Origin: Symbiodinium natans
Taxonomy: Eukaryota > Sar > Dinophyceae > Suessiales > Symbiodiniaceae
Reading direction: 5' to 3'
DNA: 64,000 nucleotides
NCBI GenBank assembly: GCA_905221605.1
Contig: CAJNDS010000424.1
Location: 188,478 to 252,477 of the forward strand
A program made the position numbers and the translations under genes. Positions 37,162-64,000 of the stretch are shown in pieces. The first letter of the stretch is position 1, and each line of letters begins with the position of its first letter. The notes under the pieces are model-generated. The model saw only the letters and a program-made list of their open reading frames with translations. It searched no databases and was not told where the DNA came from.

Positions 37162-37854
37162 GTGACGGGGGCGGAGGGGGGGGGGAACGGGTTTAGGGTT
37201 TCGGGTTTAATTAGGGTTGAGGGTTTAGGGTTTAGGGTTTAGGGTTTCGGGTTTAGGGTTCCAGTCCTTTTGGAGCCGTACCCGCGACTAAACCGCAAGC
37301 CTGAGATCCCTTCGATGCTGGAGGATTGTTGTGTTTCAGGCCGAAGCCGCAGAGTTAGGCAGTGAGGCCCCGGGTGTCTGAGAAAAGAGAGGAGGTTAGG
37401 GGATGTTTGAGGGTTTAGAGTATTTATAGGGTTTTTTAGTGTTTTTTTGTCAGGGCTTATGCTGCTTAAGTCTGTTAAGAGGCTTATGTTGTTGGATTCA
37501 GGGCTTTGGCGTTTAAGGACGTGGGTTGTGGGAGGTGTGGGGGATTTTGATTCTTTTTGTTTGGGGGGCGGGGGGGTGGGGTTGGTCTTTGTTTTAAGAA
37601 GTGCCAGGGTAGCTTTGGGCTTTGAGGCGATTCGGCGCGCTGCGGGTCGAGGGTCGAGGTTTTGAGGGCTGAAGGGCTCAGGGTGGAGCAAGATCTCCTT
37701 TCAGGTTTACGGTTGCGCGCTTGCGCACCCCGGCGACTGTTGGCAGTTCAGGGGATAACACATCCCTAAACCCTAAACCCTAAGCCCCCAACCCTTTCAT
37801 ATGCGCCACCCGGGGGTTCCCACCCATCCCTGCGACTGTTCTGTTGATTTCAAG

Positions 37855-47060: not shown

Positions 47061-47174
47061 AAGGCGTTTAGGCGTGAGGGGGCTGTGGGTTAAGTGTTTA
47101 GTTTAGTGGTTTAGGGTCCTAAACCCCTAAGCCCTAAACCCTAAACCCCAAACCCTAAACCCTAAACCCTGAAC

Positions 47175-47690
47175 GCAGGGTTGAGGACTGAGGGTCTTCG
47201 GGGGTTGGGAGGGGAGGGGCATGAAAGGGCTTGGGGACCCAAACCCTGCGAACCCTGCAGGCGCTTTGAACCCTTGTTAGGGTTTCTATCGGGTTTATGC
47301 GGCTTCAGGGTTTAAGGGTTCCGGGGTTAAGGGTTTAAGGGTTCAGGGTTCAAGGGTTTAAGGGTTTAAGAGTTTAAGGGTTTAAGGGTTTAGGGGTTCA
47401 AGGGTTTATAAGGGTTCAGAGTTTGGGGTTTACGGGTTCAGGTTTAAGGGTTTGGGGGATCCATGATGGTTCGGATTGGGAGCCCGAAGCTAAACCTTGA
47501 GCCTCCAGGGGTCCTAAGGGAAGTCTCAACGTTGAGCCCTCCCCCGCCTTTCGACGATCGAAGAGGATCCCTCCCTTTCGACGATCGAAGAGGAAGACGA
47601 AGCGGAAGACGAAGAAAACAACGAAGACCAGGTGGCATGCTCTGATTCGAGGCTTTCGGGCTTCGGTTGAGCGTTGAGCTCGGCTTAAGT
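47175..47690 (+). repeat. Tandem duplication, uninterrupted copy with acidic exon
   Basis: Begins GCAGGGTTGAGGACTGAGGG. Contains GGGAGCCCGAAGCTAAACCT and, at 47548-47631, an exon-like acidic stretch reading STIEEEDEAEDEENNEDQ and ending CAG|GTGGCA. It serves as the unbroken reference for the copy split by the 13.56 kb element. Confidence 0.8.
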
Positions 47691-47750
47691 TCTATAAAAT
47701 CTATAAACCCTAAGTTCAAATCCCTGAACCCTTAAACCCTAATCCGTGAG

Positions 47751-48058
47751 CACAGGGTTAAGGATTGAGGGTCTTCGCGGGTTGGGAGGGGAGGGGCATG
47801 AAAGGGCTTGAGGACCCAAATTCTGCAGGCGCCGCAAATCCTTTTCAGGGTTTGTCGGGTTTACAAGGGTTTAGAGGGATTAAGGGTCTAGGGTTTAGGG
47901 GTTCAGGGTTTACGTTTTGGTGGATACATGATGGTCTGGACCAGGAGCCCGAAGCTAAACCTTGAGAGCCTCCGCGGGTTTTTGAGGAAAAGTCTCACCG
48001 TCGAGCCCTCTCCCAAACCCTAAGCCTTAAACCCTAAACCTTACTAGAAGAGGGATGG
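47751..48058 (+). repeat. Left half of the second tandem copy, split by the mobile element
   Basis: Matches 47175-47560 (GTTGGGAGGGGAGGGGCATG, GGAGCCCGAAGCTAAACCTT, GAGCCCTC) then stops matching at about 48010. The missing acidic exon reappears at 61670. Confidence 0.75.
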
Positions 48059-48071
48059 CCCGAAAGCATCG
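48059..48071 (+). repeat. Terminal inverted repeat, left end
   Basis: CCCGAAAGCATCG. A further CCGTGCG lies a few bases inside, also present inside the right end. Confidence 0.75.
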
Positions 48072-48084
48072 ATTTGCCGTGCGT

Positions 48085-48240
48085 TGACTCCATGCACTTG
48101 ATTCTTTGTAATCGAACTGTATGCACTTGGAGAAATGTATGCCCTTACATGGTTGCATAGTCACTTGTACACTGCACTTGTATGCACTGGAACCGCATGG
48201 CATTCAAGTGTGTGGAGTTGAATGCCATGCACTTGTGGTC
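48085..48240 (+). repeat. TGCACTT-rich left subterminal region
   Basis: ATGCACTTG or CACTTGTATGCACT occurs about seven times without fixed period. The right end has the regular 14-bp array of the related TATGCACTT. Confidence 0.65.
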
Positions 48241-48515
48241 AACTCTGTAGACTTTTCATCGGCGTTGAAGACAACGCCGAGCTCCAGCGGCCGGTCGCGG
48301 CACGCACCTGCGCCGGTGCAAGGAAAGAAGCAGAAACCACACAAGCACAAAAACAGACAAAAGAGGTGGAGTCTAAGTAAGGGCCGTGCATGTTGGTCGC
48401 CATGGAATACCTGCGCGCAGAAAACAGCTTTACTTGCAAGTCGGTCGACAAAGGTGCCAATCGTCCCGGGCGGTCCTAGCTGCATTTTCACACACGCGTG
48501 CGTCGCACCGTCATA

Positions 48516-48753
48516 TTAAACAGAGGTGGCCGCGCCGTCGTACTTTCGCAAGACAGCGTCCGTTTGGGGAACCCACATGTGTATTTGTCTGACATGTGGC
48601 ACCCGCGCTCCGAATTGACACGCTGCCTTGCAGAGGCTAACCTTTTTATCGCAAGCGCGCCGTCGACTTGAAATCATGTGCGCCAGCTTCCCACTCCGGG
48701 TCGCGTCGCGCTTCCCTCTCCATTCCGGATTGACGTTACTACTTACTACAAAG
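48516..48753 (-). other. 3' region of the ASCH gene with DAVLRK motif
   Basis: No independent gene. A - strand frame ends QTDAVLRKYDGAATSV, containing the recurrent 14-mer GACGCTGTCTTGCG at 48547-48560. Confidence 0.4.
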
Positions 48754-49503
48754 CTACTCAGCAACTTCGAACTGAAAGGACAGCTCAACTGGCTTGGTCC
48801 AGCCCAGCATGGACCTTGGCCGCCCTCCCACCGACACGGGCATCTTGAAAGCCTTGACGTCCAGGACCACCCAGCCGAAAAACCGCTTAGCACCCGAGGA
48901 CCACCAATCGAATGGACTGTCGACCTCGATGAGCGTATCCTGCCTGTGAGAGTCGAAGTCCCGATCGTCCAAGAACTCGGTCGCCCCAGCAAAGGTGATG
49001 ATGCCCAGGACCTGAGCCCGTGAAGGAGGAGGGCCAATCTCCGTGTCCACGATGGCACCCTTGGTGGACCCGGCGCCGACGGTCTCTATGAGGAAGAGCT
49101 GCTCGCCCTCCGAAAAGCACTGGTAGTGACCGAGGGCGTACTTCCTCACCTCCATCTTTTTGCGCCCAAGCATCAACAGCCGACTCCATGGGTACTGGAC
49201 ATTGAGGCCGCAAAGCGAGAGGCGCTGAGTCGACAAAAAAACTTCATTGGACACCGAAGCAGGCAAGTTAGGATCTTTCAGCCGTGCTGCGCGAGCGACC
49301 AACTCGGCCGCCGTGCCGCATTCTCGCATGGATTTCAAGTCTGCAAGAGCTTTCCTTCTGCTGTCACGCAGCGGACCTCTGATCGAAGTGTCCTTCTCCT
49401 CGCAGATGCGGATGTGCGCAAAATGCGCTCGCCAGCCATATCCATGCTTCTCCACGATCCCGCGCTGGCTAAGTTCCTGTGACTTTCTACCGAGACCCGC
49501 CAT
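48754..49503 (-). CDS. AP2-like + ASCH (PUA-fold) domain protein
   Basis: 249 aa, complete. Residues 20-62 (HGYGWRAHFAHIRICEE, SIRGPLRDSRRKALADL) have the W-R-A and G-P-x-R-x-x-x-x-A-x-x-D-L pattern of AP2-type modules frequent in dinoflagellates. Residues about 95-235 match ASCH proteins: VQYPWSRLLMLGRKKMEVRK, then EQLFLIETVG, VLGIITFAG, DDRDFDSHR, WVVLDVKAF. The ASCH/PUA fold usually binds RNA or modified nucleosides; some bacterial members are ribonucleases or amidohydrolases. Activity here cannot be told. Same strand as the phosphatase and Rep genes; start chosen at the first ATG before the AP2-like motif. It may equally be the 3' part of a longer spliced gene. Confidence 0.75.
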   Translation of the reverse strand: MAGLGRKSQELSQRGIVEKHGYGWRAHFAHIRICEEKDTSIRGPLRDSRRKALADLKSMRECGTAAELVARAARLKDPNLPASVSNEVFLSTQRLSLCGLNVQYPWSRLLMLGRKKMEVRKYALGHYQCFSEGEQLFLIETVGAGSTKGAIVDTEIGPPPSRAQVLGIITFAGATEFLDDRDFDSHRQDTLIEVDSPFDWWSSGAKRFFGWVVLDVKAFKMPVSVGGRPRSMLGWTKPVELSFQFEVAE

Positions 49504-49576
49504 GCTGCAACTTCACACCTGCCTCGAGCCAAGGTAGAGATCACAACAAAACTCTGAGCGCAGGAGAAGATCCACA

Positions 49577-49614
49577 ACACCGTCCCCAAGTTGTTTGCGA
49601 GGATTTCAAAGCTC
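49577..49614 (+). repeat. 38-bp copy of a minisatellite edge sequence
   Basis: ACACCGTCCCCAAGTTGTTT followed by GCGAGGATTTCAAAGCTCCA; the same occurs at 59115-59154 and 59551-59594 with one change. It sits 74 bp upstream of the ASCH start codon on the - strand. Confidence 0.85.
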
Positions 49615-49805
49615 CATGCGCTCGGGCCATCCCTCTAGAAGCACGCATGCGTGTAGAGCATCCGATGGAATGTGTGACGGCGCATATGTGTGCATGTTGA
49701 GGCGCAGGCAGGAGGCCAAGCAGCTTTGCATTTTATATCTTGGGCTGGTACACGCGAAAGACCCTTTCGCAAGACAGCGTTGAGGGGAGTAAGCAAGGGT
49801 TCAAA

Positions 49806-50529
49806 CTAGCGAGAGTTCTGCAGGCGGTGCAAAGCCAAGAGAGCATAATCTCTGCATTTCCACGGTTGCAGAGCTGGCCGAGCCGACAAGATGCAGTCCA
49901 CAGCTTCATCTGCGCTGCATTGGCCGTCCAGCACCAGCCAAGCGCAAGAGGGCAGTAGGACTGCGATTAATGCCACCGAAGCAATGGAAGAGCACGTTGA
50001 ACTCCTCGCTCGCCTGTTGGCACTGCTCGCGCAGAGTGCGCAAAGTCTGAGCCATGTCTGTCCAAGCCTGGGCGCACCGCTCTGCGCTCTCGAAGAACCA
50101 GGAAGCATCCCGGTTGCATTTGATTCTGGGGTCGTCCAATTCAACTTGGACGTGCCGCACACCAGAGCGGGAAAAGTGCTCGCGCCAGTCTTGGGGAGCC
50201 CCCCTGACTCGCAGCTCAGCTGGCCGGCACACGCTCACCACAACCGTCACAGAAGTGTTGGTGCTGACCTCGACGTGGAAGATGTCGGCAGCCGAGCGCA
50301 CGCTGCCCAGCAAGCAGCTCTCACCAGGCTTCGCAGACCGCACCACCACGGCATCGAGAGGCCAGTCGGAGATGTCGCCCAGGTTGTAGGAAGCTCTCCA
50401 AACAGTATAGTCCATGTCTGACCAAGGTCCCTCATTGTATTTTGTGGAGATGTCGAGCTGCCTCTGTCGAATCCAGCACATCTCCGCGTCGGACATTGTC
50501 GGCCCAGAAGACGTCAGCGAGGACTCCAT
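49806..50529 (-). pseudogene. Dual-specificity phosphatase, one frameshift
   Basis: From ATG at 50529 the first frame gives VWRASYNLGDISDWPLDAVV and the P-loop HCFGGINRSPTALL, the HC-x5-R-S signature of cysteine phosphatases, with nucleophile Cys and Arg kept; DDPRIKCN upstream holds a candidate general-acid Asp. The frame then stops quickly, but the next frame carries AWLVLDGQCSADEAVDCILS then ARPALQPWKCRDYALLALHR, the expected C-terminal helix of the family. The switch falls at about 49944, where one extra base separates the two. Either real decay or a sequencing indel. Family members remove phosphate from Tyr/Ser/Thr; the substrate is unknown. Confidence 0.75.
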
Positions 50530-51490
50530 GCATATGCAGAAAGCAGCAAGGAGGTTTCACTGCAGACCGCTCGTCGGGCCAAAACTAGCTTTTCGAGCCA
50601 AAGCCAGCAGCGCAGCCAGGTCTGCGGGTTTAGGGTATCTTGTTCAGAAGAGTGAGGGGCTGAGGTTCTGGGGTTCGGGCAGAACAATGTCAGAATGACA
50701 TTCCCACACAGACAGACACAAAACCACGTCATCGACTGGCCTAAAGCTCGGGATGTCTCCCATCCACGGTCAACGTCAAAGGCGAAGAGAAGTTGAGGTC
50801 AAGAAGAAGGCTACAGAAGAAGCACTGTTTCAGTCCTGCGCTCTAGTGAGAAACGAACTTGCCCAGTCCCGCGGGCTGCATCCCCACACCTCCGCAAGAC
50901 GGCGTCCATGCGGTTCCGCAGCCGCGCATCTTCGCAACAGAGCGGCCATGCGGTTCCACGGTCGCGCTACATGTGTGCGGTGGCGTGAAACACACGTAGC
51001 CGCTCAGACCGCCGGGATACGTCAGCACCGCCCCTAGTCATCATGCCGATGAGCAGCCTCAGATGAAAGATGCGGGAGAGACCTCAAGGCAGACATTCGC
51101 ACATCTTCCTCGTTGTACCAATCCACAATGCAACGTGCGCAATAGTGCGCCTGATGTCCATACTTCGTTCTCATGCACGGACGGTCGTGCATCTCGCAGG
51201 AGAAAGTACAACTGCCTCTTCGCGGCGGGCAAAGATTCCCCATTGCGGCAAGGAGCAAAAGGGCGCGGTCACCTAAGCAAACGTCGCAAAAAGGTGCTGC
51301 GGCGCCCACACGAATGCACGCATGTCACCATGCACTCAGACATCATGCCAACGTGTGAGTTGTGTCAAGTGAGTCCAAGGAGACATGCCATGTCATTCTC
51401 AGTCCAGGGAGACACGCAGTCTTTTTAGCAGGAGCTGCGAGAGTGTGCGCATGCCCACAGGCGCTGCAGGCGCTGACTGACCTGTCCAGG
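50530..51490 (-). other. Leader and spacer between phosphatase and Rep genes
   Basis: At 50550-50595 a leader-like sequence resembles the one at 58615-58660. At 51034-51309 a - strand frame is Cys/His-rich (CEMHDRPCMRTK, HYCARCIVDWYNEE), perhaps a degraded zinc-binding segment. 50873-50960 contains two related GCGGTTCC repeats. No firm gene. Confidence 0.4.
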
Positions 51491-51830
51491 GCGAGCCTTC
51501 CGCCGTGTCCGGCGCCGGCGCACCTTCCGCAAGACAGCGTCGGGCGCGCGGCGCCGGGGTCAGGCTCCGGCAAATAAACATCCGCAAAACTGGACCCTAG
51601 AGTCTCGAGTGCTGTCTAGGGCGAGGCTTCCGCCGTGTCCAGCGCCGGCGCACCTTTCGCAAGACAGCGTCGTGTGCGCAGCACCGGGGACGGGCTCCGG
51701 CAAATAGACATCCGCAAAACTGGACCCTAGAGTCTCGAGTGAAACATGTCTATAGGGCGAGGCTTCCGCCGTGTCCAGCGCCGGCGCACCTTTCGCAAGA
51801 CAGCGTCGCGCGCGCAGCAGCGGGGACGGG
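51491..51830 (+). repeat. Tandem repeat of 130-137 bp (2.6 copies) after the Rep stop codon
   Basis: Units start at 51491, 51621 and 51758 with GGGCGAGSCTTCCGCCGTGT. Each carries CGCAAGACAGCGTC and, in the first two, CATCCGCAAAACTGGACCCT. It begins right at the end of the Rep reading frame, so it is probably 3' UTR or terminator-like DNA. Confidence 0.85.
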
Positions 51831-51831
51831 C

Positions 51832-53700
51832 TCAGGCAACGTCCCAGGCTGCGCACTTCACCTTCGTCGGCGTCTCCTCGATGAGACTGGTGGCCGGGCG
51901 CTTGTTGCTCTGCAGCGTCGGCTCCCCCGCGAGCAAGTCCCAGACCATGGCGCGCTCTGTCTCCAGGTTGCGAACTTGAGCCTCCGTCGCCCGGGACATC
52001 CACTCCACGTGCAAGACCACAGCGTCCGTGGCCTCGTTCCTGAGTACGCGTCCCACCAAAAACCGTGGTTGGCCGTCTGCCATGTTGAAGAGGTGACAGC
52101 TGGTGAAGTGACAAAAGGCCTCGATCGCGAATGGCTGGGCGCCGTCCATGTGTGGGTACGAAAAGACCTGCTGGTGCTTGGTGACCAAATGCTTCTCGCC
52201 GCCAATGTCCACCTCGTCCATGGACGGCTCGTCCTTGGCGAAGGCCAGCAGCGTCACGCACTCCGCGGACACGGAACCGCGCGTGAAGAAGGTCCCGAGG
52301 TCCGAGCAGGACAAGTCTGAGAACAGACTCTGCACAGGCAGGACCGCGCCATCCCTCATTTCATTTACCAGGCGCGTCACCTTCTTGACCATGGGACGCG
52401 CGCGCTCATCGTAAGCTTCTCCGAAGGAAGGACGAGCTGCTAAGATCTGAAATTGCGTCGGAGCACTTGCGGATGCCTGCGAAGCTTGCGAGGACTGCAG
52501 CAAAGCGCCGCGGGGCTGCCCCAGCCGCTGTGAAGTACCCAAGCGAGCATCGAAGGGCCCCTTGAAGCAAAGCGCCTGCGGGCCCTTGTCCCGAAGCAAC
52601 TGGGCCAGCGCCTGCTCGTCCGCGACCCGGGCCAGCACTGCGAGCTCCGCTCCTCCCACCAGGACATTGTCCAGCTGCCCCGTCCAATCCGCCACGTGCA
52701 CGGTGGCCAGCACGCGACGCTCAGCGTACTGCTCTCCCGCGGACTCCCGCTGGCGTTCGCCAAGAGGAAGCGGCGAGGCTTCGACGGACAGCTGCGCCGC
52801 CAGCGCAAGCTGGCTGTCGTACCGAATCCGGCATGCAGCTTCCAAGACTTTTGCGCGCCACCGCTCCAGCTCGATGACCAGCTCGCCTCGCGCAGAGCTG
52901 GCCATCATGCATCGCAAACGGCTGGCCAGGTCGTGGCCCAGGAGAACGATCAAGATGTGCGGATGCATGGACCCGCGTCCTTGTGTCTCCAGAGGGCCGC
53001 AGAAAGCAGCGATGTCCCCAAAGCAGCCTGGGAAGGTCGATGCGGCGAAACCGTCCTCGTAGACCCCGGCCTGACCCGCCCTAAAGCTGGCTCGCTTGAA
53101 GGGCGGCAAACATCCCAAGACTTCTTCGAAAAATAGGGTCATCATGAGGTCAAAGAACCTCGCCTGAGACACGGGGTCGGCAGCTAGAATCCGACGCATG
53201 GCGGTCACGCACGGCAGAATAGGCTGCTCCAGATCCCAACCCAAAGAAACCTCGTAGTTCTCCACCTGCCCATCCACGCCCTGCGTGTGCAGCTGCAGAA
53301 GCAGGGCAGCGCGAGAATCTGCGAGGTTGGGCGTCATGAAGACGTGCGCGTTGCCGTAGTGCCAGCCAGCCGCATGGCCTCGAAGTCGAATTTGACTGCG
53401 ATGTCCTTCTGTGCCGAGGACACTGGCGCTGGCCTGCAGCACGCCGCCTAACGCGCGCTTCAGCGACACATCCACATCCGGTGAGCGCAACAACTCACGT
53501 ATGTCGGCCTTCTCGCCGTGCAACGCCATAGCCTTCAGCAGCTGCTCCGTGCTGACCGAGGCGATCATGGCGCAGTGCCGACTGAAGCCGCTCCGTTTGA
53601 CGTATGCTTTCGATGTGCGCATGAGAGAAAGTCGGCGGTTGGTGTCGTACATGACAGGCAAGAGCTGTTCCTGGCACGCAACTGTCGCTATACAGATATA
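51832..53700 (-). CDS. Helitron-like HUH (Rep) domain exon
   Basis: About 620 aa, ending at TGA near 51832. The exon probably begins at a CAG acceptor before EQLLPVMYDTNRRLSLMRTS. Near residue 125 GWHYGNAHVFMTPNLAD matches the start of the Helitron helicase-like N domain, and GRGSMHPHILIVLLG is the HUH metal-binding motif (H-P-H here; H-A-H in typical Helitrons). HUH enzymes nick single-stranded DNA and link to it through a Tyr; I cannot place the catalytic Tyr with confidence. The C-terminal 120 residues (FCHFTSCHLFNMADGQPRFL, VGRVLRNEATDAVVLHVEW) replace what should be a Pif1-type helicase; no Walker A motif is present. It would act in the nucleus on element DNA. Confidence 0.75.
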   Translation of the reverse strand, partial: YICIATVACQEQLLPVMYDTNRRLSLMRTSKAYVKRSGFSRHCAMIASVSTEQLLKAMALHGEKADIRELLRSPDVDVSLKRALGGVLQASASVLGTEGHRSQIRLRGHAAGWHYGNAHVFMTPNLADSRAALLLQLHTQGVDGQVENYEVSLGWDLEQPILPCVTAMRRILAADPVSQARFFDLMMTLFFEEVLGCLPPFKRASFRAGQAGVYEDGFAASTFPGCFGDIAAFCGPLETQGRGSMHPHILIVLLGHDLASRLRCMMASSARGELVIELERWRAKVLEAACRIRYDSQLALAAQLSVEASPLPLGERQRESAGEQYAERRVLATVHVADWTGQLDNVLVGGAELAVLARVADEQALAQLLRDKGPQALCFKGPFDARLGTSQRLGQPRGALLQSSQASQASASAPTQFQILAARPSFGEAYDERARPMVKKVTRLVNEMRDGAVLPVQSLFSDLSCSDLGTFFTRGSVSAECVTLLAFAKDEPSMDEVDIGGEKHLVTKHQQVFSYPHMDGAQPFAIEAFCHFTSCHLFNMADGQPRFLVGRVLRNEATDAVVLHVEWMSRATEAQVRNLETERAMVWDLLAGEPTLQSNKRPATSLIEETPTKVKCAAWDVA

Positions 53701-53768
53701 GCAAATTAAGACAGCGTCCAAAAGCGATTCAATATACTATCAAGGACAAAGTTCGACCTAACCAAATC

Positions 53769-54694
53769 TTAATACGACCGGGATGCGGACAGACTCCAAC
53801 GAGGAAGAAGGGGCGTCTCGGCGCTATCTCCATACGCCAGCTCCTCACGAAGTAGCAAGTACCGAAAGACTTCGCCTGCCTCCATGCCAGTCTCGCGCTT
53901 GACGAAAGGCACGCCGTCTCCCCAGGGGAAAAGATCCGGGAATGCCATGGCCCAGGTAGCCGGCTGAAACATGTTCATGGGCTCGTCGCGAGAGGGCACC
54001 ACAAGTTTCTGAGGTCGCACTTCGAACATTTGGCCCTGAGCCTGGCGCTCGTGCTCCACACTGTTAGCTAGCGACTGCACCCTTCGCACGCGGCTCAGCA
54101 CGCGCTGCTCCTGAGCTCCCTCGCGGCCCAACAAGCCCCCGGCATCTGCCTGCTCAGGACCCAAGTCGTTTTGAGCCCGATTGCGAAGAACCGATTCAGC
54201 CTCGGTATAGTCTTGCCGCGGCTTGCGACGGCACAATTCTTCCACATCGCGGCAGACTCGAAGCCAGCGGTTGCCCTGGTCTGAGTCATCGTTGAGGCCA
54301 ACGATACTAGACACGAGATGACCTGACTCCAGCGCAGCAGGTGGATTTCGCAAGACAGCGTCCTCCGAGCTGCTACCGGCTGGCGCGGCAGGCTGCTCCT
54401 CGCGCTCGTCTTCCTCAGCTTGCCCTTGCGCGTCAGCTGGCCCCTTTTGCAAGAGTTCACGGGCCAAGTAGCTGTCAACGGCAGTCTCCAAAACACAGCC
54501 TTCCAGCACGCTGTCCTGGAGTCTGCCCGGGTCCAGAGCAACCGAACGGTAGTAAGGCGAGGTCGTCCGAAGTTTCTCCACGGCTGCAACGTACTCGTCT
54601 CTGGGAGCTTGCAAGACATTGCTGGACTTCAGTTCCTGTTTCTTCTGGCCGACAAGAACGAACAAGATGTTCTCGGCCATGTCCTGGTCTTGGG
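53769..54694 (-). CDS. Helitron-like protein, exon before Rep (pre-Rep region)
   Basis: About 305 codons. Starts within DQDMAENILFVLVGQKKQEL, which continues the DUF6570-like region after a one-base frame change in a C6 run (54692-54697). It ends with NMFQPATWAMAFPDLFPWGD and FRYLLLREELAYG, the conserved 'PATW..F..LFP.G' entry of Helitron-like N domains. The middle is acidic and variable (EEDEREEQPAAPAGSSSEDA). An intron of about 70-150 nt should follow to reach 53700. Confidence 0.7.
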
Positions 54695-54697
54695 GGG

Positions 54698-55372
54698 CAG
54701 AGTCGCCTGAATAGCTCCAGGGCCGGCCTGTGGAAGGAAAATCGTGTTGCCGATGTATCCCTTCTGCCTCTCATCGCGCGGTAGCGACAGCGGCTGCAAA
54801 ACCGTCACCTGCATGCAGACCCGCACGAGAGGGAGTAACCGCTTTGTTCCAGGCGACAGGTTGCTCAGCTCGGGCAGAGAGCGTCCGATCCAGAGATCGT
54901 TAGCCAGCGCGTGCCTTGGAAGCATGAGAACGGAGCATTTCAAACTGCTGCGACACTCTCGGCAAACCGTACAAGGGTCCGAGGGTGATGCTGGCATGCG
55001 CCGTCGATGCAGCAACAGATACTGTCCCTCCATGTACGGGTGCTGGACAGCGGATGCCTGAAGTTCGGAAAGAGGTATCTGTGGCCAGCGCTCGGCGTAC
55101 CGATCGATGCCCAGCAATCGGCACAGACGAGCCTGCTGACTCGGCAATACTGTCTCGGCACCGGAGGGCACCTCGATTGAAGACATGTCTGCGTCCGGTG
55201 GCTGAAACAGGACCATGGGGTACAGCTCGTTAACCCAGAAGCGACGGGCGCAAACCACACAACCCCCTTCCGCTCGGCCAGCGTGCATTCCAGGAGGGCA
55301 GCGCAGCTGTTCGTCGAAGTTGGCTGCGATTGTACGCTGGCGGCTCATCTCAGGCACCTGACTCGTTCAAGC
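54698..55372 (-). CDS. Helitron-like protein, DUF6570-like Cys region
   Basis: Acceptor TCAG at 55373 then VPEMSRQRTIAANFDEQLRC. Conserved features: CVVCARRFWVNELYP, CTVCRECRSSLK, LPRHALANDLWIG, LSPGTKRLLPLVRVCMQV, GYIGNTIFLPQ. These are the marks of the DUF6570 domain found N-terminal to Helitron Rep domains. The two CxxC pairs suggest zinc binding. Followed by the frame change at 54692-54697. Confidence 0.7.
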
Positions 55373-55479
55373 ACGACAAAGCGTCAGACACGTACACTTG
55401 ACATGACAGGCAAAAGACACGTAGAAGGCTATTGCATGTGCCAAGGGGCCACAGGACCTCTGTGCGCTACCATTGCCAG

Positions 55480-56450
55480 GATTTTCTTGCGGTACTCCAC
55501 GAAAGCTCGCTCTACATCCAGAGAACGCACGCAATGACTGCTCACAATGTGCTCCTTAAGGTCTGTGAGGTTCTGGCAGTTGAAGTCACACAAGCGACAG
55601 CAGTACCTTTCAGAAAGTACTGAAGGGTCGTCCGAGAAAGAGCGCAGCAGGTGGCCGGACACAGCTTCATTCACGGCGGGCAAGGTCGGAGAGCAATCCA
55701 GCAGCGCAGCGACACGCTCCAGCTTCCGCGTCAGAGACTTCTGCGGGTCCTGCAGCAGCCTCAGCGCTCCCATGACGACTTGGTTCGCGTCTCCAACCAG
55801 ATCCTCCAAGGGGACATAACATTGCTTGCGGCACCCGCCCTCGCTCCAGCCAGGAACGGCAAACAGGAGCGCCCTCTCCGCAGCAGAACGCCAAAGAATG
55901 CCGGCTTGCGCGTCCGGGCCATTTGCTAAGCAATCCAGTGCCAACGTCGACAACGGCGCAAAGTCCGGAGGGTAAGCCTTTGTCATGGCCTTGACTCTTG
56001 CGGCGGCGCCCCCAGTGTAATATTTTTCCGCGCGCTTGGCCAAGACAGGGTTCTCCTCTACCGAAGGGATACGAGAACACCCTTCCACAACCTGCCAAGA
56101 GACGAGGTCGTCCCGCAAAGAGAGCACTGCGAGGTCTATACTTTCCTCGCGAGACCTTTCCTCCGACACTGCGTTGGGGCTGTGCAGCTCGCGCACGCCA
56201 AGGCCGGCCAGCGGGTGCAGGAGCTCCGTGGCCAAGAACCAAGCAAACTGCGACCAGTCCTCGGGCTTTCGCACGTGGGCGAACGTCTGGGACCAGCGGC
56301 ATGGCTCGCCGGGCTGCGTCCGTCGCTCCCAACCGTAGCGACGCATCAGGGCGCGCAGCACGGTGGTGTCGCCCTGGTCGAACTTACGGGTCTGATACTT
56401 GTGCTGGATGACGCTCAGGACTGCCTCGCAAAACAAGCTAAGAAGCAACA
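55480..56450 (-). CDS. Helitron-like protein, exon with C2H2 zinc finger
   Basis: About 320 aa. Residues near the end read CRLCDFNCQNLTDLKEHIVS then SH, a C-x2-C-x12-H-x4-H finger, followed by VERAFVEYRKKILAM and a GTAGCG donor. The same finger plus YRKK linker precedes DUF6570 in related dinoflagellate proteins as I recall them. The upstream part (GDTTVLRALMRRYGWERR, WSQFAWFLATELLHPLAGLG) is unrecognised; it is likely helical. Joined to the next exon it reads ILAM-VPEMSRQRTI in frame. Confidence 0.65.
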
Positions 56451-56459
56451 GAGGGCGAG

Positions 56460-57360
56460 GCATCATGTCGCAGTTCTAAGACGCCCCCCCACCTGGCCTC
56501 CATAACATCCTTGCGGTCCTCGTACCCGTCCGTGCTCTGTACTTGCGGCTCCGCCTCCAGGTTGGCCAGCAACCAAAGACGACGAGCGACATCCACGGGG
56601 TCCGTTCGCTCAGAGCAGTCAGCTAAACGCCACCAACCTCGGCACGCTACACACATATTCACAGCACAAACGGCGGCAAAGCAAGAAAAGTGAGAAAAAG
56701 AGTAATTCTGACGCTCACCTGCTCGCTGATCTGCACGATCTTCAAGCACAGCGGCCAGAAGACATTGCTGCAAAGGCGCAGAAAGAGATGGCACTCTCAC
56801 TCCTCTCAAGCTAGCTACAGCAGCTTCCCACGCAGTGCTCACTTCCGGGGCCAACGCAACATCTACCTCTGGCCAATGCGGCAGAGCCTGCAAAAGCAGC
56901 TCCGCAAGTAGCTGCTGCTCTGCAGCGGAAGAAAGATGCCTGTCGCAAAAGACTGTGGCAGTAATGTCCAGCGAGTAAGCAGCGGCAGGTCTGCGCAAAT
57001 TCACATCCTCGAAGATGTCAGGGGCAGCAAGGACCACCGCTGCAACAGTGTCTGCTCCAGCTTCGTGAGCTGCTCGGAGGGATCTCCAGACGTGGTATTT
57101 GATGTCCGCACTTGCGCTCGGAGCAGCGGCAGGACACAATGCCAGGACGATTCGCTCAGTCAAATTGCTCCTGCTCACACTCTGGAAGGCGACTCCCAAC
57201 TCCGCCGCCAGTTGCTGTAAGCTGGGCCCGTCGCCTCGGAAGCGCCATTTACGAAGCCTGGCCCGAAGAGACCGAGCCGCGCTTTCGCCGAGCTCTGCTA
57301 CCCAGCTCCTCAAGCCATCTGCGCTGACATCGTCCTCGACGTCTGCCTGCCCGAACGTAG
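56460..57360 (-). CDS. Helitron-like protein, N-terminal region with diverged SAP-like motif
   Basis: Open on the - strand for 300 codons. It begins ADVEDDVSADGLRSWVAELG and has SLQQLAAELGVAFQSVSRSN then LTERIVLAL, a fourth, diverged version of the SAP-like motif seen in the exons at 57445-58657. A GT donor lies near 56717 (GCAG|GTGAGC), and a further exon WWRLADCSERTDPVDVARRL then WLLANLEAEP follows. No enzyme motif. Probably part of the same protein as the downstream exons. Confidence 0.5.
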
Positions 57361-57482
57361 AAACGTCGAGGCCAAAAAAAGCAAGCAAGATTAAAACGTC
57401 AGGTGGCGGGCAGTAAAGGGGGGTGAGAAGAGCCTGAAACTGCCCTAGTCAAGAGACACTGCGCAGGACAAAAGCGAAGCTT

Positions 57483-57718
57483 TCCCCATGACGCCTCCTG
57501 CTCGGATATGCACTGCAACAGAGCGTCTAGAAGCTCCTGTTTGTTTCGCATGCCGGTGCCAGAGCCCTGCTGCACACCCGCAGCCCCAGCCAGCGCCCGC
57601 AACTGCTTGACGGTCTTCTTCGCGAGCTCCCCGCGCAGCCAAGCCACGCCGTCAGCAGCAAAACCTTCTCGCAGGCGCTGCAGCTCTTGCTGCAGCGCAG
57701 CGCCAGCTTCATCCTGTT
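57483..57718 (-). CDS. SAP-like exon, copy 3
   Basis: Reads LREGFAADGVAWLRGELAKK, TVKQLRALAGAAGV, RNKQELLDALLQCISEQEAS, WGK. The pattern L-x-x-x-T-V-x-x-L-R-x-L-A-x12-K-x-E-L-L-D-A-L is that of SAP or Rho-N-type helix-turn-helix motifs that bind DNA or RNA. Donor is GC (AAA|GCTTCG). Confidence 0.6.
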
Positions 57719-57915
57719 CAAAGGTCGACAAGAAAAGCCTGAAACTGCCCTAGTCAAGAGACACTGCGCATGCGCCGCTTGAACGTAAAGCCCAAAAAAA
57801 AGCAAGCTCCAAGCCAGAAACAACCTTGACCCCAACCTGCGTAGGAATGCAAACAATATGACACACAAACCTTAGAGAAGGAGGAAACCAAGAATACAAA
57901 GCACAAAAATGACGC

Positions 57916-58150
57916 TTTCCCCAAGACGCCTCCTGCTCGGAAATGCACTGCGAGAGAGCGTCGAGAAGCTCCTCTCTGTTCCGCATGCGCGCACCAGCGC
58001 GCAGGTGCACACCCGCAGCCCCAGCAAGCGCCCGCAACTGCTTCACGGTCTGCTTCGCTAACTCCTCGCGCAGCCAAGCCACGCCATGAGCGGCAAAACC
58101 TTCGCGCAGACCGTGCAGCTCTCGCTGCGGCGCAGCGCCAGCTTCATCCT
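57916..58150 (-). CDS. SAP-like exon, copy 2
   Basis: Same organisation as copy 3: GFAAHGVAWLREELAKQTVK, QLRALAGAAGVHL, RNREELLDALSQCISEQEAS. Preceded by CTTTTCTTCTCGACC and TTTCAG as in copy 3. The exon plus intron unit repeats every 436 bp. Confidence 0.6.
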
Positions 58151-58351
58151 GATCACAGGTCGAGAAGAAAAGCCTGAAACTGCCCTAGTCAAGAGACACT
58201 GCGCACGCGCCGCTTGAACTTAGAGCCCAAAAATAAGCAAGCTCCAAGCCACAAACAACATGACCCCAACCTGCGTAGGAATGCAAACCATGTGACGCAC
58301 AAACCTTAGAGAAGAAGGAAACCAAGAATACAAAGCACGAAAATGACGCTT

Positions 58352-58657
58352 TCCCCAAGACGCCTCCTGCTCGGAGATGCACTGCGAGAGAGCATCAAGA
58401 AGCTCCTCTCTGTTTCGCGTGCTCGCGCCAGAGCCCTGTCGTGTGCCCGCAGCGCCAGCAAGCTCACGCAGCTGCGTGACCGTCTTTTTCGCAAGCTCCT
58501 GGCGCAGCCAACCTGCACCTTTAGCACGGAAACCGCGCCGCAGCGTCTGCATAGCATCCCCGCCGGTGTACGACATGCCTGGACCTACAAAAACCCGCAC
58601 GGTCCAAGCTGGCGCCAAGGTTTCACTCAATAGCGCCTCTCGGGCCAAAGCTAGCAC
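58352..58657 (-). CDS. SAP-like exon, copy 1, with possible start codon
   Basis: ATG at 58657, MLALAREALLSETLAPAWTV, then GFRAKGAGWLRQELAKKTVT, QLRELAGAAG and RNREELLDALSQCISEQEAS. The N-terminus differs from copies 2 and 3, so this may be the first coding exon. GC donor AAA|GCGTCA. Part of the leader resembles 50550-50595. Confidence 0.55.
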
Positions 58658-58917
58658 GCACGCATGTAGAGCAACGCATCATGAGGTAACAGACATACAG
58701 CACACGAACGCTAGCACCGACACACAGTGCGGGATGCCTTCTCCCCTTCATTGACGTCGGCGCGCCCCAGGACGTCCAAATCGGACATCGCCCAAACATG
58801 TTACATTTGAGAGCAACCGCTGATCACTTCCCACAGAGAGACGAGTCTGAGCGCAGGACTGGTTGCCTTCCCTCCAAATCGAGATCACTTTTTTCCCGCT
58901 CCACTGCATGGCTGATA

Positions 58918-59112
58918 TTTGTCATGGTTTTGGAAACAGCGAATTCGGGGACCATGGTTTTCGCGATGGTTTTGGAAACAGCTAATTCGAGTACCATGGT
59001 TTTCGCGATGGTTTTGGACACAGCGAATTCGGGGACCATGGTGTTTGCGATGGTTTTGGAAACAGCAACTTCGGGAACCATGGTTTTCGCAATGGTTTTG
59101 GAAGCGAATTCG
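58918..59112 (+). repeat. Minisatellite 1, 42-bp unit
   Basis: About 4.6 copies starting GGTTTTGGAAACAGC, with GGGACCATGGTTTTCGC inside. A shortened copy recurs at 59491-59550. Period 42 keeps the + strand open. Confidence 0.9.
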
Positions 59113-59972
59113 AACACACCGTCCCCAAGTTGTTTGCGAGGATTTCGAAGCTCCACAATTCCGCGCCCACGCTATTTGCGAGGATTTCGAAGCCCCACAG
59201 GATTTCGAAGCCCCAGAATTCCGCGCCCACGTTATTTGCCAGGATTTCGAAGCCCCACAGTTCCGCGCCCACGTTATTTGCGAGGGTTTCGAAGCCCCAC
59301 AGTTCCGCGCCCACGTTATTTGCGAGGGTTTCGAAGCCCCAGAATTCCGCGCCCACGTTATTTGCTAGGTTTTCAAAGCCCCAGAATTCCGCGCCCATGT
59401 TATTTGCGGTGTTTTCATGCGCCCAGATGTCCGTTACCATGCTCTTTGTGGTGTTTTCATGCGCCCAGATGTCCGTTACCATGCTATTTGGTTTTGGAAA
59501 CAGCAACTTCGGGGACCATGGTTTTCGCAATGGTTTTGGAAGCGAATTCGAACACACCGTCCCCAAGTTGTTTGCGAGGAGTTCGGAGCTCCACAATTCC
59601 GCGCCCACGTTATTTGCGAGGATTTCGAAGCCCCACAGTTCCGCGCCCACGTTATTTGCGAGGGTTTCGAAGCCCCAGAATTCCGCGCCCGCGTCATTTG
59701 CGAGGATTTCGAAGGCCCACAGTTCCGCGCCCACGTTATTTGCGAGGGTTTCGAAGCCCCAGAATTCCGCGCCCACGTTATTTGCTAGGTTTTCAAAGCC
59801 CCAGAATTCCGCGCCCACGTTATTTGCTAGGTTTTCAAAGCCCCAGAATTCCGCGCCCATGTTATTTGCGGTGTTTTCACGCGCCCAGATGTCCGTTACC
59901 ATGCTCTTTGCGGTGTTTTCATGCGCCCAGATGTCCGTTACCATGCTATTTGCGGTGTTTTCAGACGCCCAG
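59113..59972 (+). repeat. Minisatellite 2, 42-bp unit
   Basis: About 18 copies of TTCCGCGCCCACGTTATTTG, then CGAGGATTTCGAAGCCCCAC; includes a GCGCCCAGATGTCCGTTACC variant at 59429, 59468, 59882 and 59921. The part 59491-59960 repeats 59072-59480 as a higher-order duplication. Confidence 0.9.
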
Positions 59973-60450
59973 GGTGTCCGCGGCGTACTACGTCTGGAGC
60001 AAGCTCCGCGTGTCCGTGGCGTACTACATTTGTACTACAAAAGTCGACTTTCCAGCCACGGAAGCTCCGGGTGTCCGCGGCGTACTACGTTTGTACTACA
60101 AAAGTCGACTTTCCAGCCACGGAAGCTCCGGGCGTCCCCGGCGTACTACATTTGTACTACAAAAGTCGACTTTCCAGCCACAGAAGCTCCGGGCGTCCCC
60201 GGCGTACTACATTTGTACTACAAAAGTCGACTTTCCTGCCACGGAAGCTCCGGGTGTCCGGGGCGTACTACGTCTGTACTACAAAAGTCGACTTTGCAGC
60301 CACAGAAGCTCCGGGTGTCCGTGGCGTACTACATCTGTACTACAAAAGTCGACTTTCCAGCCACGGAAGCTCTGGGGGCGTCCGTGGCGTACTACATTTG
60401 TACTACAAAACTCGATTTTCCAGCCACGGAAGTCCCCGGCGTACTACGTC
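59973..60450 (+). repeat. Minisatellite 3, 61-bp unit
   Basis: Seven to eight copies carrying GTCCGTGGCGTACTACATTT, GTACTACAAAAGTCGAC and CCAGCCACGGAAGCTCC. Confidence 0.9.
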
Positions 60451-60464
60451 TGTACTACGCAAGT

Positions 60465-60970
60465 CGAAAAAAAAACGCAAAAACACTACGGTTTTAGCAC
60501 CGCGACCACGCGAAAACCCGCAGAGGGGTTACGTTTGTATGTCAAAAAACGCAAAAACACGACGGTTTTGGCACCGCGCCAACGCCCAAACCCGCAGAGG
60601 GGTTACGTTTGTATGTCAAAAAACGCAAAAACACGACGGTTTTGGCACCGCGCCAACGCCCAAACCCGCAGAGGGGTTACGTTTGTTTGTCAAAAAAGGC
60701 AAAAACACGATGGTTTTGGCACCGCGCCAACGCCGAAACCCGCAGAGGGTTGACGCGCGCACGAAAAAAAATGCAAAAAACGACGGTTTTAGCACCGCGA
60801 CCCAGCGATTACCCGCAGAGGGTTGTCCGCGCACAGAAAGAAACGTAAAAAAACGATGGTTTTAGCACCGCGACGACGCCGAAACCCGCAGAGGGTTGTC
60901 CGCGCAAATCAAGAAACGTAAAAAAACGACGGTTTTAGCACCGCGACCACGCCGAAACCCGCAGAGGGTT
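60465..60970 (+). repeat. Minisatellite 4, 74-bp unit
   Basis: About seven copies with AAAAACACGACGGTTTTGGC, ACCGCG and AACCCGCAGAGGGGTTACG; later copies change to GAGGGTTGTCCGCGC. Confidence 0.9.
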
Positions 60971-61108
60971 GCAATCCCGATTGGCGATGTCAACCCAGCC
61001 CGCCGCCTTAGAAAGAGTAATTTTAATTTAGAAATCTAGGACTGGGTACGAAGGTCTAGTAAATTCTACGTAAATCTAGAAATTTGTATTCACTGATTAC
61101 TAAGCTCT

Positions 61109-61568
61109 ATGCAATTCACTCTATGCAATTCACTCTATGCACTTCCCTCTATGCACTTCACTCTATGCACTTCACTCTATGCACTTCACTCTATGCACTT
61201 CGCTCTATGCACTTCACTCTATGCACTTCACTCTATGCACTTCACTCTATGCACTTCACTCTGTGCACTTCACTCTGTGCACTTGCCTCTATGCACTTCA
61301 CTCTATGCACTTGCCTCTATGCACTTCACTCTATGCACTTCACTCTATGCACTTCACTCTGTGCTTCACTCTATGCACTTCATTCTATGCACTTCACTCT
61401 ATGCACTTCACTCTATGCACTTCACTCTATGCGCTTCACTCTGTGCACTTCACTCTGTGCGCTTGCCTCTATGCACTTCACTCTATGCACTTCACTCTAT
61501 GCACTTCACTCTGTGCACTTCATTCTATGCACTTCACTCTATGCACTTCGCTCTATGCACTTCAGTCT
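61109..61568 (+). repeat. Minisatellite 5, 14-bp unit (TTCACTCTATGCAC)n
   Basis: About 33 copies with TTGCCTC and TGTGCAC variants. The period is not a multiple of three, so all + frames are open; predicted Cys/Leu/Ser repeats are artefacts. Ends 41 bp before the right terminal inverted repeat. Confidence 0.95.
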
Positions 61569-61609
61569 ATGTTGTTGTGTCAGGGGGCTCCGCACGGAAG
61601 AACCCTTCG

Positions 61610-61622
61610 CGATGCTTTCGGG
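61610..61622 (-). repeat. Terminal inverted repeat, right end
   Basis: CGATGCTTTCGGG, exact reverse complement of the left end. Confidence 0.75.
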
Positions 61623-61785
61623 AATAAACCCTAAACCCTAAAGCCTAAATTCTTTTGGAAGGCTCCCCGCCTGGCGACGATCGAAGAAGAAGACGAAGCG
61701 CAAGACGAAGAAGACAACGAAGACGAGGTGGCATGCTCTGATTTGAGGTTGAGCGTTGAGCTCGGCTTCAGTCACCCTCCTCAAG
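61623..61785 (+). repeat. Right half of the split tandem copy, with acidic exon
   Basis: CCCTAAA repeats, then 61674-61727 reading TIEEEDEAQDEEDNEDE and GAG|GTGGCATGCTCTGATT, matching 47575-47650 at nearly every base. Followed by TTGAGCGTTGAGCTCGGCTT as in 47665-47685. Confidence 0.8.
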
Positions 61786-61965
61786 CAACTTCCCTAACCC
61801 TAAACCTAAACGTGCAAAACGCGAAAGGGTTCCTTAAAGCAGCCCTGATCTTAAGAAGGCCTGGGGAATCTGAGGGCTCCAAACCCTAAACCCTAAACCC
61901 TAAACGGGGCACTCCAAGGAGCTTCTGCAAGCTAGGGTCACTGTCGGGAAGGGCCATGTAACATA

Positions 61966-62078
61966 GTGGCCGGAAGAAATACCAATACTCTTCCCTTTAT
62001 GGTCCCTCTGCATGTATACTATAATTTAATGGCCCTTCCCCCCCCCCCCAAAAAAAAAGCCTACTCTAACCAGTAAGG
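61966..62078 (-). repeat. Dispersed element, family H (reverse copy)
   Basis: Reverse complement of the family: GGCCGGAAGAAATACC, ATGGTCCCTCTGCATG, TATACTATAATTTAATGG, then C-run and CCTACTCTAACC. It shows that the family inserts in both orientations. Confidence 0.7.
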
Positions 62079-62079
62079 C

Positions 62080-62827
62080 CCCAATAGATTATGTGCAAGG
62101 ATCATCTGAGAGGCACCGCGGAGGAGAACTTTGCGAAGTCTAAAACGACAAAACCCTTGTGAGAAGGGTTTAGGGTTTAGGGTTTTGGTGGGGAATAAGA
62201 GCCTTCAACCGTCCGAGCCCCTTCTGTGTCTCTTGGGGCTGTGCCTCCAGACATGTTCACATGTTGTTTAGGGTATCATGTCCGCTCAGGGGTCCGGCGT
62301 TTTTTGTCCCAGGTGCGACGGGGGCCTTTGTTTCTTAGGTGTGGCGGGCCTTTGTTTTTTCTAGGTCTCTAGGTTTTTGTTGTCTTCTTCCCTAGAGTAA
62401 AGAAACCTTCAACGAGTCCTCCTAGTTAAGCTCGAGATCCCCCCAACACCGAAGTCCTCAAAACTTCTCCCCTTCAATCCTCAGCCCTAAAACAAGCCCC
62501 AAACTCCCCCAAACTCCCAAACCCCCCCCAAAAACCCATTCTCTGCAAATCCTAAGCGTAAAGCACTAAGCCTCAACCCCTACATCCCCAAACCCTACAG
62601 GGTTTAAGGGTTTATGGGTGCCCGGAACCCCCAAATCCCTACACCCCTACCCCTGAACCAACACCAGACACTGCCAGGTGTAGGGTTTTGGGGTTTGGGT
62701 TTTGTGAAGCTAAACCCTGAATCCTAAACCCTAAGCCCTGAACTCCTATACTTGCCAAACGCTCGACGCTAAACGCGGAACTGGGTAGGCCGCTGTGGAA
62801 ATTATGCGTCCCCTATTGGATCATACT
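62080..62827. other. Gene-poor repeat region
   Basis: Decayed CCCTAAA-type DNA and T/G-rich stretches. No exon supported. Confidence 0.5.
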
Positions 62828-62923
62828 TTATATCCCCCTTGGGAATCATGTTTTGTATTTTGGTTTATATAAAACCCGGATATGAACAAGATTATCTTTA
62901 TTAAGGTTCTAAGGCGGGTATAG
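62828..62923 (+). repeat. Dispersed element, family D (copy 3)
   Basis: TATATCCCCCTTGGGAATCA, TTTATATAAAACCCGGAT, TTATTAAGGTTCTAAGGCGG. Confidence 0.8.
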
Positions 62924-63457
62924 TACTTAGGAACACCTTGCTTAGGGTTTTGAACTCGGCCAGGTCGCCGAAGCGGAGGCGGCCAAGCTCGGAGAGATCG
63001 GGGGAGCGAAGCGAGGGTCTATGGTTTAGGGTTTCGGGTTTGGGGTTTGGGGTTTAGGGCTTTGTAGGTGTATAGTATAGAAGGACGCGGGGGTTTATCG
63101 GTGCCAAGTGTTTTTCTCCATTTCGCCCTGTCCTCAGTTCCAGTAGAACCCTCCACGCTCTCTTTGCGAGAGGCACGACAACCACCGTCCCTAAACCCCA
63201 AACCCTGAACCTTAAACCTTAAACCTCAAACCCGAAACCCTAAACCCTAAACCCTAAGCCCTAAACCCTAAACCCCAAGCCCTAAACCCTAAACCCAAAC
63301 ATGCTGCAAGCCCGGCTAAGCTTCCAACCTGGATCCGGAAGTCGATCGAGTGAGAGAGAGACTCAGCCAGAAACAGGTTGAGGGTCAGGGGTTCAGGGTT
63401 CAGGGTCTGACGTTTATAGGATTTAAGGTATATTCCTCATTTAACTTCTAACGAGGT

Positions 63458-63616
63458 AGGGTCGGTAGGACATGTCATGTTTCCCCTTCTTGGGTTTAAG
63501 AGGATCATACTTGGGAATATGTTTCAGAGGGTATGTTTTTGGGGTATGTTTCCCTTATTAGGTTTAAGAGGATCATACTTGGGAATCTTCTTCAGAGGGC
63601 TTTTTTAAGGGCCATC
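63458..63616 (+). repeat. Two tandem family J elements
   Basis: TTTCCCCTTCTTGGGTTTAAGAGGATCAT and a second TTTCCCTTATTAGGTTTAAG 75 bp later; both continue ACTTGGGAAT and TTCAGAGGG. Confidence 0.75.
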
Positions 63617-63837
63617 CTAGCAGGCAGTGGCCCAAGTTCTGTCACCCTAAACCCTAAACCCTAAACCCCAAAACACTAAACCCTGAACCCTAAAACCTAA
63701 ACCCTAAACCCTGAACCCTGAACCCTGAACCCTAGACCCTAAACCGTGGGTGCGTGTCACAAGCAGTTCACTCCCAACCTAGTCGGGCTGTCAGACACAG
63801 CACTCCGAAGGTCTCCAAAGCCCGAACTCCTCAACCC

Positions 63838-63967
63838 CAAACCCTAAACCCTAAACCCTAAACCCTAAACCCTAAACCCTAAACCCTAAACCCTAAACCC
63901 TAAACCCTAAACCCTAAACCCTAAACCCTAAACCCTGAAACCCTGAAACCCTAAACCCTAAAACCCT
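63838..63967 (+). repeat. (CCCTAAA)n telomere-type tract
   Basis: About 18 units near the window's right edge, the last few interrupted by CCCTGAAA and CCCTAAAA. Confidence 0.95.
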
Positions 63968-64000
63968 ACATGGCGTGAAAGGTCAGGCCGCCAGTGCTCC

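Follow-up and report, generated by a model that had tools for sequence, protein, structure and literature searches.

Asymmetric terminal repeats of 8-16 bp combined with T-rich target sites have been published for the Helitron2 (Bao and Jurka 2013, PMC3627910), Helentron (PMC4067079) and FoHeli (PMC5148889) transposons; these and the other sources given by PMC number are cited from excerpts of their text. Helitron2 elements are inserted after runs of T; the Helitron-1N1 elements have no target-site duplication (TSD) and the CRe-1, CRe-2 and CRe-3 elements of the same paper have one (PMC3627910). The Helentron/DINE-1/HINE elements combine subterminal inverted repeats of 12-15 bp with a TT target and a variable number of terminal Ts (PMC4067079). 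In Fusarium oxysporum, FoHeli elements carry asymmetric repeats of 12-16 bp and, in two subgroups, occupy a T-rich insertion site (TNAT|T) (PMC5148889). Helitrons typically measure 6-7 kb; lengths of 14 kb are given for fungi and of up to 39 kb for maize (PMC6431247). For Symbiodinium, Helitrons are mentioned among the repeat classes (PMC9087856). The word "Helitron" is absent from the main text of the Symbiodinium natans genome paper and from that of a ten-year review of dinoflagellate genomics, and no dinoflagellate Helitron family of the kind described below was found in the titles and abstract openings of the open-licence literature searched. The present work concerns such a family in S. 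natans, represented by a 13,579-bp element in a stretch of 64,000 nucleotides (hereafter the window, on contig C424). The element occupies positions 48044..61622 and is read on the minus strand (Rep orientation), with ends common to 30 sister copies and three longer insertions. It is very probably a transposon of the Helitron2/Helentron type, moved by rolling-circle transposition, and its window copy would depend on a long relative because its own Rep lacks the tyrosine motif.

The ends were defined by comparison across the genome (759 Mb, 2,543 contigs). The 13-bp word CCCGAAAGCATCG is found exactly at 61610..61622 on the minus strand and at 48059..48071 on the plus strand. Within the window this word is by itself not clearly above chance, since the four matches found with at most two mismatches compare with an expectation of 1.3, and a count of four was reached in 7 of 100 shuffles. 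It is considered real because it sits at the break of a host duplication and has 531 exact matches in the genome (269 forward, 262 reverse) versus 23 for the reversed control word (12 and 11). Thirty convergent pairs lying 1.9-8.7 kb apart were picked by eye among the first approximately 100 of the 531 matches, with 300 bp of flank included. As these pairs were selected by the exact word, the evidence lies in the sequence adjoining it and not in its occurrence at the two ends. Alignment of all 31 elements in Rep orientation (the 30 pairs plus the window copy; 1,880 to 13,579 bp, the window copy being the longest) reveals two distinct ends. At the 5' end, host Ts are followed by CCCGAAAGCATCG in all 30 pairs (consensus CCCGAAAGCATCGCGAAGGGTTCTTCCGTGCGGAGCC). 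At the 3' end, the repeat CGATGCTTTCGGG (with small variants; consensus GCACGGCAAATCGATGCTTTCGGG) is followed by 15 nt to CTAG and then by host Ts. Counted at a fixed offset, which was kept for two elements with indels in the 3' 15 nt (L016 and L036), a host T is present at -1 in 30 of the 31 elements, at -2 in all of them, at +1 in 29 and at +2 in 28. The repeat is therefore asymmetric and the left end of the window copy is 48044, not 48059. No TSD is visible beyond the T runs in the 31 elements, and these runs would hide duplications of 1-2 bp.

An earlier note, made from the window alone, had described a 13-bp inverted repeat bounding a block at 48059..61622. The repeat is exact and the right end holds, but the repeats are asymmetric and not plain terminal inverted repeats, and the left end lies 15 bp further out, at the CTAG of 48044, as indicated by the sister copies. 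The 5' repeat stands at the very terminus, preceded by host Ts (61623-61624, AA on the plus strand), and the 3' copy lies 15 bp in from the terminus. The 3' terminal 15 nt (48044..48058, minus strand) read CCATCCCTCTTCTAG, found exactly in 19 of the 31 elements, with CCAATCGTCTTCTAG in eight and other variants in four. The motif CCGTGCG, which the same note had placed just inside both ends, is present at 61591..61597 (minus strand) and 48077..48083 (plus strand), with a spacing from the terminal repeat of 12 and 5 bp, respectively. At the 5' end it pairs with GCATCG of the repeat in a predicted hairpin (GCA-CG-GAAG/CTTC-CG-TGC) that can form and is not better than shuffles (z = -0.09, single-strand folding). 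The lack of any second copy with these ends, which the same note had named as a refutation, is countered by the 30 two-ended copies inspected and by the 531 occurrences of the word.

These ends might alternatively belong to a canonical Helitron1 (5' TC, 3' CTRR, A|T target) carrying an inverted repeat by chance. A TC...CTAG arrangement is readable, with a T before CCC and CTAG at the 3' end, and the family resembles Helitron1 in its CTRR terminus and in a Rep with HUH and two-tyrosine motifs accompanied by a probable helicase (in the insertion on contig C1838). However, the flanks are T|T and not A|T, given the counts at -1 and -2, the repeat is found at both ends of all 31 elements, even though these were chosen by it, and single-strand folding revealed no 3' hairpin better than shuffles. 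A Helitron1 identity is thus unlikely.

The coding content concurs with a rolling-circle element. A minus-strand open reading frame (ORF) runs for 634 codons without a stop. Its first half (52720..53736) is the N-terminal half of a Helitron_like_N Rep (PF14214, E 9.9e-14) with an HPH (HUH) motif; its second half (51835..52719, minus strand) is not Rep and corresponds to the C-terminal half of an RPA-like protein (61-67% identity to P0012, P0017 and P0022). The earlier note had announced a Helitron-like Rep accompanied by cargo, and both are indeed present, the cargo consisting of phosphatase-like and ASCH-like ORFs. Rep relatives such as P0002 (86%) end at 52720 and the RPA-like proteins of Symbiodinium P0012, P0017 and P0022 begin at 52719. 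The joint itself (52717..52721, minus strand) links the two in frame with a few filler bases; on its Rep side, agreement with L053 extends to 52721, and on its RPA side, agreement with L059 begins at 52717. The stretch between Rep and RPA has been lost from the window copy and half of each gene is fused in frame; the structure of the joint suggests an end-joining-like deletion. The tyrosine motif YxxxYxxK, present as FYTGEYAAKKFE in the C1838 insertion and also found in P0006, P0007 and P0010, was not found in the window copy, and the tyrosine-motif part of the Rep relatives has no match in the window block.

Three longer insertions contain the Rep and RPA halves apart and on the same strand, separated by 11.8 kb on C1838, 19.0 kb on C2509 and 24.0 kb on C20. 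On C20, both halves lie between family ends at 62776 and 100029 (37,254 bp). For the two other contigs, the zones searched for ends were set by the arms of the window copy (7.9 kb from Rep to the 5' end, 3.8 kb from RPA to the 3' end), and ends were found in chosen stretches of 1-2 kb at 37767 and 63498 on C1838 (25,732 bp) and at 139317 and 171682 on C2509 (32,366 bp). The three insertions have the same termini and flanks unlike one another. Of 13 segments taken from them, 12 could be aligned to the window copy, with an identity of 99.4-100% in 11 and of 92.8% in L083, from the 5' tandem-repeat part on C1838. Such near-identity of longer copies suggests that the family has jumped recently. 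The thirteenth segment (L081, on C1838) covers a part without window counterpart and gave only short matches at 77-82%. After Rep, it encodes a zinc region and MRCNVDVKYLGR, followed by the tyrosine motif FYTGEYAAKKFE and two frames; the RPA-like gene comes next. The two frames hold GAGGSGKT, IDELSM, GDFLQL and YVMLSR, recognized by eye, which we take to be helicase motifs. In the part read, the C1838 insertion encodes a Rep bearing the HUH and YxxxYxxK motifs, together with a probable helicase and an RPA-like protein. A J-domain-like ORF is indicated by a match weaker than that of the helicase (E 0.057). No endonuclease match was obtained in Pfam scans of seven chosen L081 ORFs, with no dedicated search made.

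A genome search with the 634-residue ORF returned at least 29 matches, and both halves were found in one frame at the window alone. The window copy is probably a non-autonomous deletion derivative of the 26-37 kb insertions. The Rep::RPA fusion could instead be an expressed regulator or trans-acting factor under selection and not debris, a proposal to which its 634 uninterrupted codons and a 606-residue protein in another public record, on a contig of another length (P0001, one residue changed), lend some support. P0001 may nevertheless be the same locus from another assembly, the fusion is the single one among those matches, and deletion derivatives with other joints exist; selection on the fusion appears improbable.

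Several other copies are further deletion derivatives. The Rep stretch is absent from the sister copy L037, which matches the window copy at 98.7% over 57770-56853 and at 98.9% over 51573-49642 and carries other cargo before the 3' end; L056 and L057 have other points joined to RPA. The public protein P0040, in which a SAP-like ORF is joined to the ASCH-like ORF, reflects a further deletion or else a gene model with splicing. One copy, L024 (C150:37722-43154), has two 5' ends in tandem and a single 3' end, the outer 3' half being absent. Its inner element follows TTTTT and is inserted after GGGGATGTTTTT, a point at which the siblings L029, L032 and L034 continue with GTC; GGGGATGTTTTT|GTC is a paralogous unfilled site. 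No exact end motif was found within 1 kb of L024 on either side (L049, L050). This single case fits a start at the outer 5' end and a stop at the first 3' end, as expected if rolling-circle transposition runs from a 5' start to a 3' stop; the same picture could also have arisen by a later deletion. Two tandem 5' ends, 461 bp apart, were also observed in L046 (C199:46329-47402), and both L024 and L046 are composite or nested copies. The family is resolved from one end to the other and includes candidate autonomous copies, non-autonomous copies and one nested-composite copy.

If the element were instead a DNA transposon of the cut-and-paste kind, its symmetric terminal inverted repeats ending at CCCGAAAG and its Rep a passenger, this would explain the exact inversion of the 13-bp repeat and the convergent pairs on many contigs. 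The two ends nonetheless differ consistently in the 31 elements, with CCC directly on the host Ts at one and a fixed 15 nt more to CTAG at the other (4 of 31 being variants), no direct target duplication is visible at the inverted repeats and the long copies, too, have Rep between these ends. Such a transposon is very improbable here.

The insertion into the host sequence can be followed at the window locus. A host tandem duplication is present on the plus strand, whose copy 1 (about 47150..47690) aligns to a copy 2 in two pieces, 47727..48014 and 61660..61772, with 75.6-80.3% identity by piece. The block thus splits a tandem duplication, as the earlier note had recognized. Inside copy 2, the alignment places a telomere-type CCCTAAA tract on either side of the element, which was inserted into this telomere-like tract. 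The scarcity of such tracts inside the block, also part of the initial description, is confirmed by two exact TTTAGGG/CCCTAAA units in the 13,579 bp of the element versus 674 in the 50,421 bp outside. The outer parts of the window (1-48043 and 61623-64000) are extremely dense in these tracts, with 674 exact units in 50.4 kb. A telomere-type unit lies at most 60 bp from an end in 10 of the 31 elements, and several sister insertions are near such tracts. The terminal word with one mismatch is also found at 47648-47660 in copy 1 and is absent from copy 2, probably by chance. A search with the joined flanks returned the locus itself, copy 1 and telomere-type tracts (79 matches; 40 of 349 candidates scored), one such tract on C2100 spanning the flank join at 96% over 52 bases. 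An assembly chimera joining foreign sequence into the contig, suggested by the sharp shift in base composition and telomere-tract content at both ends, is hardly credible, given that both junctions are family termini known from 30 other places and that the two host flanks are halves of a single duplication. The ordinary transposon with terminal inverted repeats, Helitron1 and the chimera were dropped on account of the asymmetric ends, the T|T flanks and the junctions on family termini, respectively.

Several observations weigh against a Helitron2/Helentron-type element dependent on a long relative. Single-strand folding gave a stable hairpin at neither end (z about 0), although published Helitron2 has both. 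The 3' 15 nt are deviant in L016, L033, L035 and L036, and position -1 is a C in L018. No empty copy of the window locus, which the earlier note had proposed to look for, was found by the joined-flank search. Profile support for the helicase is weak (AAA_19 at 5.6e-4, below the cut-off, 0.0074 for the joined frames and Dda at E 0.031), and the second helicase-motif frame gave hexon chance matches only. The RPA label derives from a match of P0017 to PF16900 (REPA_OB_2) at 2.7e-4, below the cut-off and within residues 146-205, in the half without window counterpart; a profile search of the PDB gave RPA (1jmc) at E 0.93. On C20, Rep matched over residues 1-226 only. Finally, much of C20 and C2509 and approximately 7.5 kb of C1838 were left unread, and part of the length of the long copies may therefore consist of nested insertions.

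Termini, asymmetry, T-rich target, numerous copies, longer near-identical relatives and internal deletion being directly observed, the movement of this presumed Helitron2/Helentron-type element could proceed as follows, after the published model (PMC3627910). RepHel would be supplied in trans by a long relative, 26-37 kb in size. Rep would nick at the 5' T|CCCGAAAG end. The helicase would peel the strand off and RPA would coat it. Replication would halt on reaching CTAG at the 3' end, a stop that may be marked by the two inverted repeats pairing with each other, and the product would be joined between Ts with no target duplication.

The family matches Helitron2 in its insertion after T runs, in the absence of a visible TSD as in Helitron-1N1 and in its asymmetric repeats of 13 bp, terminal at the 5' end and 15 bp inside at the 3' end. 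The published 3' repeat is located about 20-30 bp from the end, and Helitron2 as described further differs from the present family by the CTAG 3' end of the latter, as in Helitron1, its lack of significant hairpins and its 26-37 kb insertions (PMC3627910). Besides repeat length, TT target and variable terminal T number, Helentrons share with it an RPA gene, gene fragments and short non-autonomous partners with tandem repeats; unlike in Helentrons, an AP endonuclease was not recognized in the stretches scanned, with no search aimed at it, and the cargo is different (PMC4067079). FoHeli elements resemble it in repeats and target but measure 5-11 kb, have no RPA gene in the published account and bear other terminal sequences (PMC5148889). 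The gene-capturing Helitrons of maize, up to 39 kb, are comparable in great length and captured cargo, their length being tied to captured gene fragments whereas at least one long insertion here also carries Rep together with a probable helicase and an RPA-like gene (PMC6431247). Asymmetric repeats, a T-rich target and no visible duplication are published Helitron2/Helentron anatomy, and the initial suggestion of an undescribed kind of mobile element is not supported: the kind is already known, and the family, its size and its cargo were not found described in the open-licence literature as far as its searched text extends. As a tentative broader picture, which we place somewhat short of an even chance, dinoflagellates would harbour giant rolling-circle transposons of 26-37 kb, in which asymmetric repeats of the Helitron2 type occur with a CTAG end of the Helitron1 type, and which carry RPA-like, phosphatase, ASCH-like and possibly J-domain or SAP-like accessory genes. 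These would have moved very recently. Most of the hundreds of ends would belong to their deletion derivatives, which would also reshuffle coding sequence; one product, the in-frame Rep fusion, could act as a regulator of transposition. With near-identical long copies at hand, activity can be tested directly in a free-living Symbiodinium, and the length and cargo bear on the maximum segment size that a rolling-circle transposon can move.

The other coding features of the window copy all lie on the minus strand. Tandemly duplicated ORFs are found at 57465..58678, one with a weak Rho_N (SAP-like) match (E 0.057). ORFs at 55432..57448, upstream of a DUF6570 region, match in part the Effrenium protein P0033 (34%) and include a weak C2H2-like finger. 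The DUF6570 region itself (53772..55366) consists of two overlapping frames (PF20209, 6.5e-12, and 3.1e-3 below the cut-off). Its frame changes at about 54690-54700 beside a C homopolymer. The insertions on C1838 and C2509 share a 31-mer at this frame change with the window copy, unlike C20 and C578, so the copies differ in sequence there. The cargo comprises a dual-specificity-phosphatase-like ORF (49909..50556; PF00782, E 0.013), for which the sister copy L037 has an open frame of 249 codons (PF00782, E 6e-8, 33.0 bits versus a cut-off of 33.5), and an ASCH-like ORF (48757..49512) whose relative P0037 bears a corresponding UniRef name. Pfam gave no match for this last ORF, its relative P0038 scoring E 0.11 only, and none for the RPA-like half of the window copy. 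A further cargo ORF ending in KKYSLEWLRKP is common to L025 and L037 (element coordinates 3288-3752 and 6296-7039, respectively) and L081 (2523-3368); the L037 and L081 versions had no Pfam match. AlphaFold models were unusable (mean pLDDT 33.8 for the RPA-like protein, 41.0 for the Rep::RPA fusion), a PDB profile search with the Rep alignment gave no match and no Rep relatives were found in the viral contig and genome contig collections searched. Scans of the window with Rfam, at the gathering threshold, and for tRNA returned none.

Of the further occurrences of the terminal word that were read, L042, L047 and one of the two places in L041 lack the family continuation, and L044 (C36) is a truncated solo 5' end; no tblastn match to the query proteins was found in it or in the adjacent 8 kb (L051). 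The sequence CGCAAGACAGCG occurs six times in the window element (48547, 49768, 51528, 51658, 51794 and 54349), and the rest of the window has none; counting both strands, it is also present in L025 (two) and L037 (four), and in none of the 28 other copies read. Behind the 5' end, a 14-bp-type tandem array (61098..61572, minus strand) is common to sister copies. The 5' tandem-repeat module (58688..60975, minus strand) makes up, with the ends, much of the 2-4 kb copies. L001, L002 and L048, on different contigs, have the same host flank beside a 3' end, with long similar stretches that include element parts (518 bp at 97% between L001 and L048, 1.2 kb at 99.7% between L002 and L048), and represent a larger repeat or segmental duplication carrying the end of the element.

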